Below, one piece after another: positions 36,582 to 41,176 of a DNA stretch of 64,000 bases; within the stretch, counting starts at the first letter, position 1; each line of letters begins with the position of its first letter. This DNA is from Pseudoalteromonas tunicata. Lineage in GTDB: Bacteria; Pseudomonadota; Gammaproteobacteria; Enterobacterales; Alteromonadaceae. The stretch spans positions 124,001-188,000 of the forward strand of contig NZ_CP011033.1 in assembly GCF_002310815.1 (NCBI RefSeq). The letters run 5' to 3'. A program made the translations under genes and the position numbers. The notes beneath the pieces are model-generated. The model was not told the DNA's origin. It saw only the letters and a program-made list of their open reading frames with translations, and searched no databases.

Positions 36582-37493
36582 TTAACGAATAAGCCAATAT
36601 TTAAGTGGTTGATTGGCTATGGTTTGTTCGGCTAAAAAGGATTCGGTGTCACTGCCCTGTAATAAGGCTAGGGTAGCCAGTAATCCCGCTTGGGTACATT
36701 GTGGTGCAGCAACGGTGACAGAGCGTGCCGCATTAGTCATTGGCCTGCCAGTTTTGGCATTTAAAATATGACTATAACGGATCCCATCGCGTAATAAAAA
36801 GCGTTTTGCATCACCACTTGTGGCAAGCGCACCTTGTTGCAGTGAGACAATTAATTGATTGTTAAATGCATCAAGACCTGGGTGTTCAATGCCTACTAGC
36901 CAATTTTGCTGATGCTGACGTGGTCCCGTGGCGGCTAAATCCCCCCCTAAATTCACTAACGTAGCGGTAGGGGTGAGGTGTTTTATTAATAAAATGACAC
37001 GGTCGACGGCATATTCTTTTCCAATACCACCAAAATCAAGCTCCATACCACTTGGCAGCGTAATCGAGTTGGCATCAAATGATACTTTTTGCCAATCAAC
37101 TAAGGGGAGTAGTGCATCAATTTGGCTTTGCTTGGCAATATGGTCACTGCCATCAAAACGCCATGCCCGGCGAAGCACACCTGCGGTTAAGTCAAATAAG
37201 CCATCACTGAGTTGGTAACATTGATTGGCAAACTGCAAAAGTTGAAAGGTTTCGAGGTCAATGTCAACCGATAGGCCTTGGCTTTGATTAATTTGAGCGC
37301 AGAGTCCGTGATTGTTGTAGCGACTAAATTTATCTTCGATACGCCACACTTCCTGACACGCAAGTGTGGCTATTTTTTGTGCCAAAGTAACATCGTGACT
37401 ATCGAGTAATATTTCACAAGGACTTGCCATTGCATCAAACGTAATGCTTAGGCCATCTCCAGTTGAATTAATTCGATAATCACGCTTGGTCAC
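36582..37493 (-). CDS. apbE: ApbE-family FAD:protein FMN transferase
   Basis: 303 residues. Recognised by MASPCEI, EDKFSRYN, DLTAGVLRRAWRF, the metal/FAD region DFGGIGKEYAVDRV, NLGGDLAATG, SGDAKR and YSHILNAKTGRP. ApbE splits FAD and attaches FMN by a phosphodiester bond to a Ser/Thr of a target protein. No signal peptide or lipobox is visible in the N-terminus, unlike many periplasmic ApbEs. The start is GTG at 37493 with AAAGGG 8 bases upstream. It is 12 bases downstream of the DUF3570 gene, the last of a four-gene operon whose barrel carries a target-like motif. Confidence 0.92.
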   Translation of the reverse strand: MTKRDYRINSTGDGLSITFDAMASPCEILLDSHDVTLAQKIATLACQEVWRIEDKFSRYNNHGLCAQINQSQGLSVDIDLETFQLLQFANQCYQLSDGLFDLTAGVLRRAWRFDGSDHIAKQSQIDALLPLVDWQKVSFDANSITLPSGMELDFGGIGKEYAVDRVILLIKHLTPTATLVNLGGDLAATGPRQHQQNWLVGIEHPGLDAFNNQLIVSLQQGALATSGDAKRFLLRDGIRYSHILNAKTGRPMTNAARSVTVAAPQCTQAGLLATLALLQGSDTESFLAEQTIANQPLKYWLIR

Positions 37494-37505
37494 TAAACGA
37501 GCCCT

Positions 37506-38822
37506 TTAAAATGAATAACTAAATTGCAAAATTAATGCATCGATACTTGGGTATAAGTCTTGGTTGGCCAAAGCACCTGGTGCACTAAAGCCTGCATCGG
37601 TTGGGTTTTGGCTATAGTACTCGACTCTCACTGCAAAATCATTACCGTCGCTTAAGCGTAGGCCGTATTTTAGCCCCAAGGTGTAAGCGTTCATTTCACC
37701 AATGCGGTAATCGGCACTGGCAAATTCAGGCAGAGCTTGGTTTTGGTTTAAAAACGGTTGATAAAATTCAGCAGCCGATTGTTGATAATAACGAACGTGC
37801 GGCTCTAAGTAGCTATTATCGCTAAATAAAAAGCGGTACCGTGTATCAACCGTATGTGACTTAATGTTCCAATCGTCCCACATATAACGGTACGATAAAT
37901 CCATAATGCTGTTATCAAAATGGTATTTTGATTGCCAATAAACGCTTTGTTTGGTGCGCTGATCGGGTCTATTTTCATATAGCTGCGCTTGGCTTAACCC
38001 TTGCTCGTCGACTAAACTCAGCACTTTAAATGGGTCGGTTAAATAGCCATCAACAACTGAATGAGAATAATTAAGTTGCATCAACATTCTGCGATTAATG
38101 ACTTGCGTTAAGCCAATCAAAAAGTCGGTTGTCGTTTTTGTTTCTGAATCACCAATACGGGTATTTGCAAATGACTGATCCCATGTTGGGCTTTCACTGT
38201 CGCCAATTAGCATTGCTGCGTAAGGTTTAGGTAAGCCACCTTCTGGGGTGAAGGTATCTTGAAAGTGACTTAATCCTAACGATAGGGTGGTATTTTTTTG
38301 GTTAAAATCGATTGCTAAATTACCGTTTATCCCAAGCGATAAATAATCATACTCTTTTGATAAATGAACCCCAGCACTTGCGGTGTAATTTGGGGCTAGC
38401 GGTTGTGTCCACTGCGCATTGAGCTGCACGCGGGTATCATGAAAGGTATTATCAAGAGGCGTATCATTGGCATTGATTTGATACTGACCTTTGCCTGATG
38501 GGCGCGTAAATGTTTGTACATAAGGCTGGGCAACGGCCCCATTGGCTGACGCACCCGTTAAGGTATCGAGTGTGAGTCTTACATTAAGTACTTGCTCGTC
38601 GGCAAATTCTTTTTTTGCATTAACCATGGCTTCGGCAGCCATAACCCGCTCGATCTCACCATAGAATAAAAAGGCAGAGTCAAATTGCCAGTCTTGCTCA
38701 GTTGCATTGACATCGGTGCCAAGCAGGGCACACGTTGCAAGCGCAAGTGCACCCGCTATATTTTTTTTATTGTCGGCTTTTTGCTGATTGACTAAGGTAT
38801 CTTTTGTTTGAGTTAATTGCAT
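37506..38822 (-). CDS. DUF3570 outer-membrane beta-barrel with ApbE-target-like motif
   Basis: 438 residues from the ATG at 38822; the Shine-Dalgarno GGAGG lies inside the last codons of the DUF4266 gene, which overlaps by 10 bases. The N-terminus has a hydrophobic stretch (NIAGALALATCALLG) followed by NATEQ, a plausible signal peptide. The rest is alternating beta-strands ending in LILQFSYSF, as expected of an outer-membrane barrel. Near the N-terminus is LTLDTLTGASANGA: DTLTGAS (D88-S94) fits the DxxTGA(S/T) motif in which ApbE attaches FMN in NqrC/RnfG-type proteins. This suggests a covalently flavinylated barrel, for electron transfer at the outer membrane. That role is inference. Confidence 0.82.
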   Translation of the reverse strand: MQLTQTKDTLVNQQKADNKKNIAGALALATCALLGTDVNATEQDWQFDSAFLFYGEIERVMAAEAMVNAKKEFADEQVLNVRLTLDTLTGASANGAVAQPYVQTFTRPSGKGQYQINANDTPLDNTFHDTRVQLNAQWTQPLAPNYTASAGVHLSKEYDYLSLGINGNLAIDFNQKNTTLSLGLSHFQDTFTPEGGLPKPYAAMLIGDSESPTWDQSFANTRIGDSETKTTTDFLIGLTQVINRRMLMQLNYSHSVVDGYLTDPFKVLSLVDEQGLSQAQLYENRPDQRTKQSVYWQSKYHFDNSIMDLSYRYMWDDWNIKSHTVDTRYRFLFSDNSYLEPHVRYYQQSAAEFYQPFLNQNQALPEFASADYRIGEMNAYTLGLKYGLRLSDGNDFAVRVEYYSQNPTDAGFSAPGALANQDLYPSIDALILQFSYSF

Positions 38823-39034
38823 CCGCAACCTCCGCCGCCAAAACTACGGCCGCCACTTGAGGCCTCTTTACTAAAATAAACATGGTCATCAACTGAGGCA
38901 TCAATGCCATCAACCAAAGCCATTTCTTTTTTTGCTAATAAGTCCCGCTCCCACGGCTCAACACCGAGCGAAGCGCAACCACCTAATGTTGTGAGCAGCA
39001 CTAGCAGTGCCAAGGGTTTAGCTAAATTTTTCAT
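38813..39034 (-). CDS. DUF4266 small lipoprotein with GGGGCGCN tail
   Basis: 73 residues. Lipobox LGGC at Cys20, then ASLGVEPWERDLLAKKEM, a segment typical of DUF4266 proteins, and a Gly-rich tail ending SFGGGGCGCN. The paired Cys of CGC could bind a metal or form a redox pair. Shine-Dalgarno AAGG, 7 bases from the ATG. It is the second gene in the TlpA-DUF4266-DUF3570-apbE set: 11 bases after the TlpA gene, overlapping the DUF3570 gene by 10. The function is unknown; the invariant-looking tail suggests a partner of the barrel. Confidence 0.82.
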   Translation of the reverse strand: MKNLAKPLALLVLLTTLGGCASLGVEPWERDLLAKKEMALVDGIDASVDDHVYFSKEASSGGRSFGGGGCGCN

Positions 39035-39045
39035 GACATTACCTT

Positions 39046-39531
39046 CTAGTGTTTAATGACTGATTGTTGCAGCAATAATTGAATTTCTTGCTCATAAGTG
39101 GGTATTTGTTTATTGATAAAACCAGCGTGGCTACGTTTAATTTCGCCATCTTTGCCAATGAGATAGCTGCTTGGCATACCGACTAATTTATACTGCTTGG
39201 CTAATATGCCCTCAGGGTCGTATACAACAGGAAAGTTAGCTGGGTGAGTCGCTAAAAATTCATTAGCAAGCAGTGCCTCTTTATCAAGATTGACTGTGAT
39301 GACGGTAAAACCATCGGGCGCATATCGAGTTTGCATCTCATTCATCCAAGGAAAAGACTTTTTACACGGCCCGCACCACGATGCCCAAAAATCGAGGTAT
39401 ATCACTTTGCCCTGGTGCTCTTGTAACAGTGTATTGAGCTGCTCCGAAGGATCATTTGTACTTGCAACACTGTTCATTGCATACGTTAGGCTTAATAACA
39501 AACAGGTAGTAAAGATTATTTTTTTTAACAT
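39046..39531 (-). CDS. TlpA/ResA-like thioredoxin-fold protein
   Basis: 161 residues. Signal peptide 1-24, then a thioredoxin fold with the active site WCGPC (C53, C56) and cis-Pro in VGMPSSYLIG. It is a periplasmic thiol reductase or oxidase of the TlpA/ResA type. First gene of the four-gene set and 11 bases before the DUF4266 gene. A role in keeping the CGC pair of DUF4266 reduced, or loading its metal, is inference from proximity. Confidence 0.88.
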   Translation of the reverse strand: MLKKIIFTTCLLLSLTYAMNSVASTNDPSEQLNTLLQEHQGKVIYLDFWASWCGPCKKSFPWMNEMQTRYAPDGFTVITVNLDKEALLANEFLATHPANFPVVYDPEGILAKQYKLVGMPSSYLIGKDGEIKRSHAGFINKQIPTYEQEIQLLLQQSVIKH

Positions 39532-39808: not shown

Positions 39809-41176
39809 ATGAAAAAGATAGTTAGAACTCTCAGCCTGATCGCTTTAGCAACAACGTTAGTTGCATGTAATGATGATGACGATAAAAAGGTTGAAATAGA
39901 AACACCTCCTCCCGCGCCGGTTGTTAAAACTTATTTACGGGTTTTGCATGCTTCTGCAGATGCACCTCTGGTCAATGTAAAAGTTAACAACAATATTGTG
40001 GTTGAAGGTGCCGATTACAGTGTTGGTTCAACATTTTTTGAGCTGGATGCCGCAAGCTATAGTGTGGCTGTTGATGCAATCTTGCCAGATGAAACTGCGA
40101 CAGTAATAGGACCGGTCGATCTAGATTTAATGGGCAATAAGCAATACTCGGTTGTTGCGCTTGGTACGGTTGCCAAATCAACACTTGAGCCTTTGATTAT
40201 CAGCCGTGATGTAACAGAGCTTGCCAGCGGTAATGTTCGATTGCAAGTGCTTCATGGTGCGCCAGATGTGCCACAAGTGGATGTTTACGTTACTCCCCCT
40301 GATGTTGCTTTAAGTAATGAAAACCCACTGCTTAGTAATGTTGCTTATAAAACCTACAGCGATGCACTTGATGTACCTGTAGGTGATTACCAAGTTCGTA
40401 TTACCTTAACCGGTCAAAAAGACGTGGTTTATGATTCGGGTACTTTAGCATTAGGTGAAGGAACTGATTTATTGGTGGTTGCAGTGCCTAATACCAAAAC
40501 AGGCACATCTCCGGTGATGTTGCTTGCCCAAGGTAAAGAATCGACCAATGTTATTGCTGATAAAAATGCGCCAAGTCATGTCCGAGCCATTCATGCTGTC
40601 GCAGATGCACCCGCGGTTAATTTAGTGGTGGATGATACTATTACTGCTTTGACTGATGTGCCATTTAAAGCGGTCAGTGACTATCTACCACTTAGCCCGA
40701 CAAGTCATAATTTTAAAGTAGAGCCAAGTGCAGCAGTCGGTACTTATGTGGTTGATGCTGATGTTACATTAGATAAAAGTGTGCATTATTCGGTTTTTGT
40801 TGCTGGGCAATTAGCTGACAATAGCCAAGCGTCTTGGCCGGTGGTTGATATGCCAAGACGGGTTGCAACTGAAGCAAAAGTACGTATTTTTCATGCGGCC
40901 CCTAATGCACCGCAAGTTGATTTATACGTTACATCCGACAACGATATCAGCGACGATACCGCAGCCTTTAGCAATGTGCCTTTTAAAGCTGAGACTGGTT
41001 ATGTTAGCTTGAAGCCTGGTACCTATTATGTAACAGCCACAGTTGCAGGTACAAAAGATGCCGCGATTGGCCCGGTAATGCTAACATTCGAAGGCGGTAA
41101 AATTTACAGTGCCGCAGCCGTTGAATCTGTGGGCGGTGGCTTACCGCTTAGCTTGATAACAATGGATGATTTTTAA
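39809..41176 (+). CDS. DUF4397 repeat lipoprotein
   Basis: 455 residues. Lipobox LVAC at Cys20 followed by the acidic run NDDDDKK. It has four DUF4397-type repeats of about 100 residues, starting near 43, 144, 257 and 352, each opening with a variant of VRVLHA(S/A)xxAPxVxxYV. The family occurs in anti-sigma-like and surface proteins but has no defined activity. It is divergent from the ApbE cluster with 277 bases between, so both could share control. AAAA-rich sequence precedes the ATG, and the ribosome site is weak. Confidence 0.85.
   Translation: MKKIVRTLSLIALATTLVACNDDDDKKVEIETPPPAPVVKTYLRVLHASADAPLVNVKVNNNIVVEGADYSVGSTFFELDAASYSVAVDAILPDETATVIGPVDLDLMGNKQYSVVALGTVAKSTLEPLIISRDVTELASGNVRLQVLHGAPDVPQVDVYVTPPDVALSNENPLLSNVAYKTYSDALDVPVGDYQVRITLTGQKDVVYDSGTLALGEGTDLLVVAVPNTKTGTSPVMLLAQGKESTNVIADKNAPSHVRAIHAVADAPAVNLVVDDTITALTDVPFKAVSDYLPLSPTSHNFKVEPSAAVGTYVVDADVTLDKSVHYSVFVAGQLADNSQASWPVVDMPRRVATEAKVRIFHAAPNAPQVDLYVTSDNDISDDTAAFSNVPFKAETGYVSLKPGTYYVTATVAGTKDAAIGPVMLTFEGGKIYSAAAVESVGGGLPLSLITMDDF

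Follow-up and report, generated by a model that had tools for sequence, protein, structure and literature searches.

The DUF3570 cassette and its relatives

The window (the whole 64,000-nucleotide stretch of Pseudoalteromonas tunicata DNA that was analyzed) contains a tight four-gene unit on its minus strand, at positions 36582 to 39531. In the order of transcription, the unit encodes a TlpA-like thioredoxin, a DUF4266 lipoprotein, a DUF3570 barrel, and an ApbE flavin transferase. Overall, our data are best explained by a one-flavin redox cassette in which the DUF3570 protein would be flavinylated in the cytosol, exported, and made part of a relay to the cell surface, a reading that we favor, if by no means strongly.

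The first gene (39046 to 39531) encodes a periplasmic thioredoxin of the TlpA/ResA type (161 amino acids) with a hydrophobic, signal-peptide-like N terminus and a WCGPC motif. It matches Redoxin (PF08534) with 72.8 bits and the ResA-like profile NF002854 with 99.1 bits, below the cut-off of 170 for that profile; PF13899 is absent from its profile matches, and the thioredoxin of this cluster is thus of the TlpA/Redoxin type. The DUF4266 lipoprotein (38813 to 39034; 73 amino acids; PF14086, 75.8 bits) has a lipobox-like LGGC and the C-terminal sequence GGGGCGCN. The DUF3570 barrel (37506 to 38828; PF12094, 529.3 bits) is 440 amino acids long when read from a TTG, with an alternative ATG at 38822, and by our reading its predicted signal peptide spans about residues 1 to 42. 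The last gene (36582 to 37493; PF02424, 220.2 bits) encodes an ApbE of 303 amino acids, read from a GTG, with Glu160, Ser226, His242, and Gly270 at the positions discussed below. The profile matches bear out the four family identities that a first-pass annotation had proposed from the sequence. Its description of the layout is also accurate: the intergenic gaps are 11 and 12 bases, the latter between the DUF3570 stop and the ApbE start, and DUF4266 and DUF3570 overlap by 10 bases when the ATG at 38822 is taken as the DUF3570 start. Promoter and terminator scans gave scores under the shuffled mean. The TAA stop of DUF3570 (in the region 37494 to 37508) is in frame with the GTG of ApbE, and read-through would yield a DUF3570-ApbE fusion.

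To place the unit among its relatives, we gathered 113 DUF3570 loci from searches of 369, 60, and 398 genomes and from a scan of named genome contigs; the loci were chosen from ranked match lists, and sampling was uneven. The aligned loci exclude L055 to L061 (whose genes are repeated in L142 to L148), L046 (a broken frame), and open reading frames (ORFs) of fewer than 300 amino acids, and L054 is a partial copy. By sequence, we labeled 91 loci type A (window-like) and 22 loci type B (more distant; L122 to L141, L160, and L161). PF12094 matches, types A and B together, occurred in 95 of the 369 sampled genomes of the class and in 5 of the 60 genomes of the genus, where only the match in the window's genome was strong (529 bits; runner-up, 204), so the cassette looks accessory within the genus. 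A genome search found DUF3570 once in this 4.96-Mb, two-contig genome, and its closest named relative is from Pseudoalteromonas rhizosphaerae (73% identity).

On sequence comparison, the four genes are a conserved cassette. In type-A loci, DUF4266 (86/91), TlpA (70/91), and ApbE (67/91) were found nearby on the same strand, with all four genes in 58 of 91; these counts are lower bounds because some loci end at contig ends (e.g., L077 and L110). The window's order, TlpA-DUF4266-DUF3570-ApbE, was seen in 51 of the 58 complete loci, DUF3570-ApbE-TlpA-DUF4266 in 6, and another order in 1. Type-B loci carry DUF4266 (22/22) and TlpA (21/22), with an adjacent ApbE in only 2 of 22. Three loci (L063, L074, and L086) encode DUF3570 proteins of about 900 amino acids; in L063, the domain stops near residue 546 and is followed by about 370 residues without a Pfam match.

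The system is not new: Meheust et al. described clusters that combine ApbE and DUF3570 with a thioredoxin-like protein and DUF4266 in 2021 (PMC8238504). There, DUF3570 is counted in 227 of the clusters with dsbD, 316 clusters lack dsbD, and the CxC of DUF4266 is pointed out. Our literature search found DUF3570 or DUF4266 named in no other paper, and the strings 3570 and 4266 are absent from a 2024 mSystems article (PMC11334425).

The flavinylation motif and the DUF3570 barrel

The DUF3570 protein carries the motif DTLTGAS at residues 88 to 94 of the 440-amino-acid frame (38547 to 38567, minus strand). According to a 2025 review (PMC12052999, seen in part), flavin mononucleotide (FMN) attaches to the last S/T of D-x-x-[ST]-G-A-[ST], and the predicted acceptor is therefore Ser94 (codon 38547 to 38549). 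The first-pass annotation was right to place FMN on this motif, although its choice of the middle Thr does not agree with this rule. A chance motif was considered and ruled out by its rate in shuffled sequences (0.34% of 200,000 shuffles of the window's DUF3570) together with its conservation among relatives. In an alignment of 127 sequences including the window's (A1), 100 fit D..[ST]GA[ST], and the D, the fourth-position S/T, the G, and the last S/T are listed as conserved in all 127.

The acceptor position holds S/T in 91/91 type-A and 22/22 type-B proteins. Among type-A proteins with a linked ApbE, the acceptor S/T is present in 67/67 and the strict motif in 51/67, so the motif is conserved beside apbE, with the full motif looser than its acceptor residue. 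In the 16 nonstrict motifs, D is replaced by N or E, A by S or G, or position four holds a different residue. The strict form is also found in 18 of 24 type-A proteins without a linked ApbE; thus, linkage to ApbE makes no difference. The window's DUF3570 has one acceptor site, not two, and a strict second site, between the first site and a D-x-R, occurs in 15 of 91 type-A sequences. Type-B motifs read S/T-S-A-S, with S replacing the usual G in 17 of 22, and ApbE is not adjacent in 20 of 22 of these loci.

Flavinylation of a DUF3570 protein has been reported for Chlorobium luteolum, in the parts of PMC8238504 available to us. The protein was flavinylated on coexpression with its ApbE, as seen in gels under ultraviolet light, and the serines of both of its sites had to be replaced to abolish flavinylation. 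The core idea that ApbE flavinylates DUF3570, which the first-pass annotation had also reached, is thus already in print for a homologue.

The structure model of DUF3570 has 16 strands and a predicted local distance difference test (pLDDT) score of 95.8, and its Foldseek and VIA matches are outer-membrane barrels. A Foldseek comparison with viral proteins returned only generic outer-membrane barrels and weak rows, and a PDB sequence search found no relative (best E value, 0.036, to unrelated proteins). That DUF3570 is an outer-membrane barrel, as first proposed from the sequence, is strongly supported by this model and its matches. In the model, the links from odd to even strands are 3, 29, 2, 35, 28, 4, 28, and 19 residues long, and all links from even to odd strands have 2 to 5 residues; the even strand count, short periplasmic turns, and long outer loops are those of an outer-membrane barrel. 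The outer-membrane topology rule was used to assign the sides of the barrel. Because the link lengths were read by this rule, the motif end of strand 3 is taken as extracellular, and Ser94 should sit at the extracellular end of that strand. Of the 40 near-invariant columns, 34 lie on the motif side, as do 18 of the 20 charged or polar ones, versus 260 of 398 residues (Fisher's exact test, P = 0.005). In the text of PMC8238504, the word "barrel" is absent and "outer membrane" appears a single time, in reference to siderophore transporters.

A leaderless ApbE with an altered active site

A feature that the first-pass annotation overlooked is the lack of a signal peptide in the cassette ApbE. In the window, 22 codons lie between the in-frame DUF3570 stop and the ApbE core, and they contain no hydrophobic stretch. 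A misplaced start that hides a signal peptide was rejected, since the GTG is preceded, at a distance of 12 bases, by an in-frame TAA and the stop-to-stop reading lacks a hydrophobic stretch. To extend this comparison, we applied a home-made rule for an export-like stretch (ahead of the core, 10 uncharged residues whose hydropathy averages 1.8 or more) to 70 cassette ApbE frames from 69 loci, two of which are fragments of one gene (L083), and to 62 control ApbEs, that is, other ApbEs of DUF3570-carrying genomes. The controls include one cassette copy, L221 (the gene also labeled L118), and a further three leaderless enzymes (L003, L219, and L220). An export-like stretch was found in 4/70 cassette frames versus 57/62 controls and, on stop-to-stop reading, in 7/70 versus 58/62. 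The same rule detects 83/90 TlpA, 104/108 DUF4266, and 88/113 DUF3570 proteins. The four positive cassette frames are L085 (a long upstream reading and probably a false start), L154 (barely above threshold), and the type-B enzymes L123 and L130, which have plain signal peptides. Collectively, these data indicate that the cassette ApbE is apparently cytosolic, in which case FMN would be attached prior to export or reach the barrel in a different way. In the available sections of PMC8238504, a missing ApbE signal peptide is not discussed for the DUF3570 system.

Two further observations concern ApbE genes outside such cassettes. In the window's own genome, a second leaderless ApbE (C1:489141-489860; L003, 1474 to 2283) directly follows a gene for an FMN_bind protein with a signal-peptide-like N terminus (L003, 922 to 1470), and downstream there is a weak cytochrome b561-like match, below cut-off. 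A leaderless ApbE beside an exported substrate may therefore also occur outside DUF3570 systems. In six genomes (G676, G748, G154, G137, G239, and G044), a signal-peptide ApbE and a weak PF12094 match, partly unfetched, are about 5 to 18 kb apart.

The cassette enzymes are also distinct in their active sites. Of the 66 cassette enzymes in a tree of 128 ApbEs (four short frames were excluded from this and the following counts), 64 fall in one clade with a Shimodaira-Hasegawa-like approximate likelihood ratio test (SH-aLRT) support of 98; the one extra row in this clade is L221, the second copy of the cassette enzyme L118. The catalytic triad of the Vibrio cholerae enzyme is Ser241, His257, and Asp285 (PMC12052999, in its accessible part). 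In the window's ApbE, this set is incomplete: Ser226 and His242 are present, and both are retained in 66/66 cassette enzymes, whereas the column of V. cholerae Asp285 and Listeria monocytogenes FmnB Asp301, matched by alignment plus spacing from the Ser and the His, is Gly in 64/66 (Gly270 in the window; exceptions, L123 and L130). Moreover, the Gly that follows a conserved Lys is Glu in 63/66 cassette enzymes (Glu160 in the window; L099 has Lys) versus 1/62 controls, and that control is L221. The leaderless ApbEs that are not linked to DUF3570 (L003, L219, and L220) keep both Gly and Asp, so the active-site change is not merely a mark of the missing signal peptide. In FmnB, as described in the portion of PMC8906456 that we could consult, this Asp coordinates both Mg ions, and Ala substitution of Mg-binding residues strongly lowered or eliminated activity. 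Our guess is that Glu160 substitutes for the lost Mg-binding Asp.

A proposed route for flavin and electrons, and its counterparts

From these data we infer the flavinylation site, the order of export, the threading of a tail, the direction of electrons, the final acceptor, and the electron chain as a whole, as follows. The leaderless ApbE would take FMN from flavin adenine dinucleotide (FAD) in the cytosol, the compartment of FAD synthesis, and attach it to Ser94 of the DUF3570 precursor either ahead of Sec export or in the course of it, and the flavinylated precursor would insert in the outer membrane as a 16-strand barrel with FMN inside its extracellular mouth. In the periplasm, TlpA, probably rereduced by DsbD encoded elsewhere, would exchange thiols with the CxC tail of DUF4266, whose glycine-rich portion would reach into the barrel and hand electrons to FMN. 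FMN would then reduce something at or outside the cell surface, the final acceptor being iron, oxygen, or another. The proposed series runs from reduced nicotinamide adenine dinucleotide phosphate (NADPH) through thioredoxin, DsbD, TlpA, DUF4266, and FMN and would end outside.

Two published results bear on the early steps. The C. luteolum DUF3570 was mostly in the insoluble pellet and was purified denatured, yet it was flavinylated, so that modification did not depend on a correctly inserted barrel; the tested protein apparently lacked its signal peptide, given a "similar cloning strategy" to that of a truncated DUF2271 (PMC8238504, as far as its text was available). In addition, SecYEG translocated dye-labeled proOmpA (PMC3105061, seen in part), so an adduct the size of a flavin would not necessarily prevent export. 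The stronger joint claim, that DUF3570 cassettes rely on a separate cytosolic ApbE subfamily, its metal-binding acidic residue relocated, for flavinylation of the barrel before export and that the barrel with its threaded CxC lipoprotein forms a haem-free conduit, is a tentative one.

The later steps depend on the partner proteins. WCxxC is present in 89 of 91 cassette TlpA relatives, and the DUF4266 C terminus is C-x-C-x, preceded by a glycine-rich stretch, in 108/108 relatives; a PDB sequence search with DUF4266 gave no match at E values up to 1. The cluster lacks dsbD, the genome's sole DsbD_TM match lying on the other of its two contigs (C1:3430041), and reading of the four cassette translations revealed no haem-binding CxxCH. 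TlpA and DUF4266 may pass electrons on, as the first-pass annotation inferred. CxC motifs are common in metal binding and in redox chemistry, and a different use of the same parts is conceivable: the CxC tail could bind or carry metal, or the flavin could oxidize thiols, with electrons passing inward or to oxygen. We regard this metal or thiol role as possible but rather doubtful. It would fit a cupredoxin gene near cassette L142 and the 25 clusters that carry a VIT1 iron transporter (PMC8238504, in the sections available). Among the 107 type-A neighbor genes, however, no metal transporter appeared among the matches listed (25 of 122 Pfam families), and the presence of a thioredoxin and a flavin acceptor next to the CxC suits electron transfer better, without excluding a metal or thiol role.

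That neighbor survey covered 107 of 156 selected ORFs, from 41 of the 113 loci, and found no recurrent partner family among the matches listed, which included response regulators (11/107), MsrP-like molybdopterin proteins (3), MsrQ-like ferric-reductase proteins (3), and DsbD (2). Genes like msrP and msrQ lie directly upstream on the opposite strand in L064, L083, L088, and L090, with Pfam support in three (L090 was unscanned). A three-ORF set recurs near the cassette in L042, L079, L142, and L144 and includes a cupredoxin confirmed in L142. An iron permease beside these four cassettes was considered but not borne out; the L042 ORF that prompted it has no Pfam match, and the cupredoxin of L142 alone was confirmed. 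Within the window, a DUF4397 protein with four matched stretches (39809 to 41176) is transcribed away from the cassette.

A second alternative, which we consider unlikely, is that DUF3570 is flavinylated in the periplasm by a signal-peptide ApbE of the same genome and that the cassette ApbE is otherwise employed or is periplasmic by an unknown route. Characterized ApbEs are mostly periplasmic lipoproteins (PMC12052999, in its accessible part), and the cassettes L123 and L130 themselves carry an ApbE with a signal peptide. Against this, three of the 49 genomes searched have no ApbE match other than that of the cassette (G091 and G323, both given as 100% complete, and G313, 94%), in a census that covered a selection of the genomes with a DUF3570 match and excluded seven unfetched matches and one inside L112 on the opposite strand. 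Furthermore, gammaproteobacterial loci retain the leaderless ApbE, as do six more distant loci, including three from Lentisphaerae and two from Verrucomicrobia. Loss of FMN transferase activity by the cassette ApbE, which would then only bind or hydrolyze FAD, with any flavin of DUF3570 coming from elsewhere or absent, would agree with the loss of the Mg-coordinating Asp but is improbable given the fully retained Ser and His, the new Glu, which looks like compensation, the invariant acceptor S/T of type-A barrels, and the activity of the C. luteolum ApbE (PMC8238504), although the type of that ApbE was not visible in the text available.

Several points nevertheless weigh against cytosolic flavinylation followed by export to the surface. 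The home-made signal-peptide rule misses 25/113 DUF3570, 7/90 TlpA, and 4/108 DUF4266 proteins. The genome encodes two further ApbEs, one of which (L001, at C1:3028750) has a signal peptide and could modify DUF3570 in the periplasm. Because the Mg-binding Asp is Gly here, the cassette enzyme could be altered or inactive. Finally, mean conservation is alike on both sides of the barrel (0.58 versus 0.53; P = 0.12), and the inward-facing side was assigned from strand parity, without coordinates.

If the proposed route is correct, it would be a general way of bringing covalent flavin to the cell surface without export of FAD. The delivery of FAD to periplasmic ApbE has been called open or obscure (PMC5655446 and PMC12052999, both seen in part); were the flavin attached in the cytosol and exported on the barrel, this supply problem would vanish for the DUF3570 system. 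The flavin would also arrive where a periplasmic enzyme could not get at it after insertion, and a flavin at the outer face would offer a possible outward electron route for cells without multihaem cytochromes. The observation of the first-pass annotation is thus confirmed and its interpretation partly supported; what is new is the proposed place and time of flavin attachment and the proposed membrane face on which the flavin ends. The literature searched did not contain the barrel fold with a single site, Ser94, at its extracellular end, the leaderless ApbE with an altered active site, or the universal CxC of the DUF4266 relatives.

Comparison with known systems places the cassette closest to the DUF3570 clusters of Meheust et al. 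(PMC8238504, in its available part), with which it shares the gene families, a DUF3570 acceptor, the C-terminal CxC of DUF4266, and a route by which, as proposed there for some bacteria, DsbD would feed a thioredoxin/flavin hybrid. It differs in having one site rather than two, no adjacent dsbD, and a Redoxin/TlpA protein rather than PF13899. The cytosolic ApbE of Klebsiella pneumoniae, likened here by its description in the accessible part of PMC12052999, also lacks a signal peptide; its target, however, is a soluble fumarate reductase, whereas that of the cassette enzyme would be an exported outer-membrane barrel. Canonical periplasmic ApbEs (V. cholerae ApbE and L. monocytogenes FmnB) are related to the cassette enzyme over most of its length and share the catalytic Ser and His, but the cassette enzyme has no signal peptide or lipobox, has Gly for the metal-binding Asp, and has gained Glu160.

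Among electron-transfer systems, porin-cytochrome conduits of the MtrCAB type pass electrons across the outer membrane through a barrel. The likeness lies in this barrel route, as we propose it; the cassette has no CxxCH, and its proposed carriers are FMN and the CxC tail. Sulfhydryl oxidases of the Erv2 type use a shuttle disulfide on a flexible tail. Like the proposed relay, they link a thioredoxin-fold protein to a flavin by way of a mobile Cys pair, whereas in the cassette these would be three separate proteins with a covalent FMN. For the threading itself, RcsF is a precedent, being a lipoprotein that passes through a barrel lumen (PMC4942254, seen in part), although the role of RcsF is in signaling and that proposed for DUF4266 is redox.

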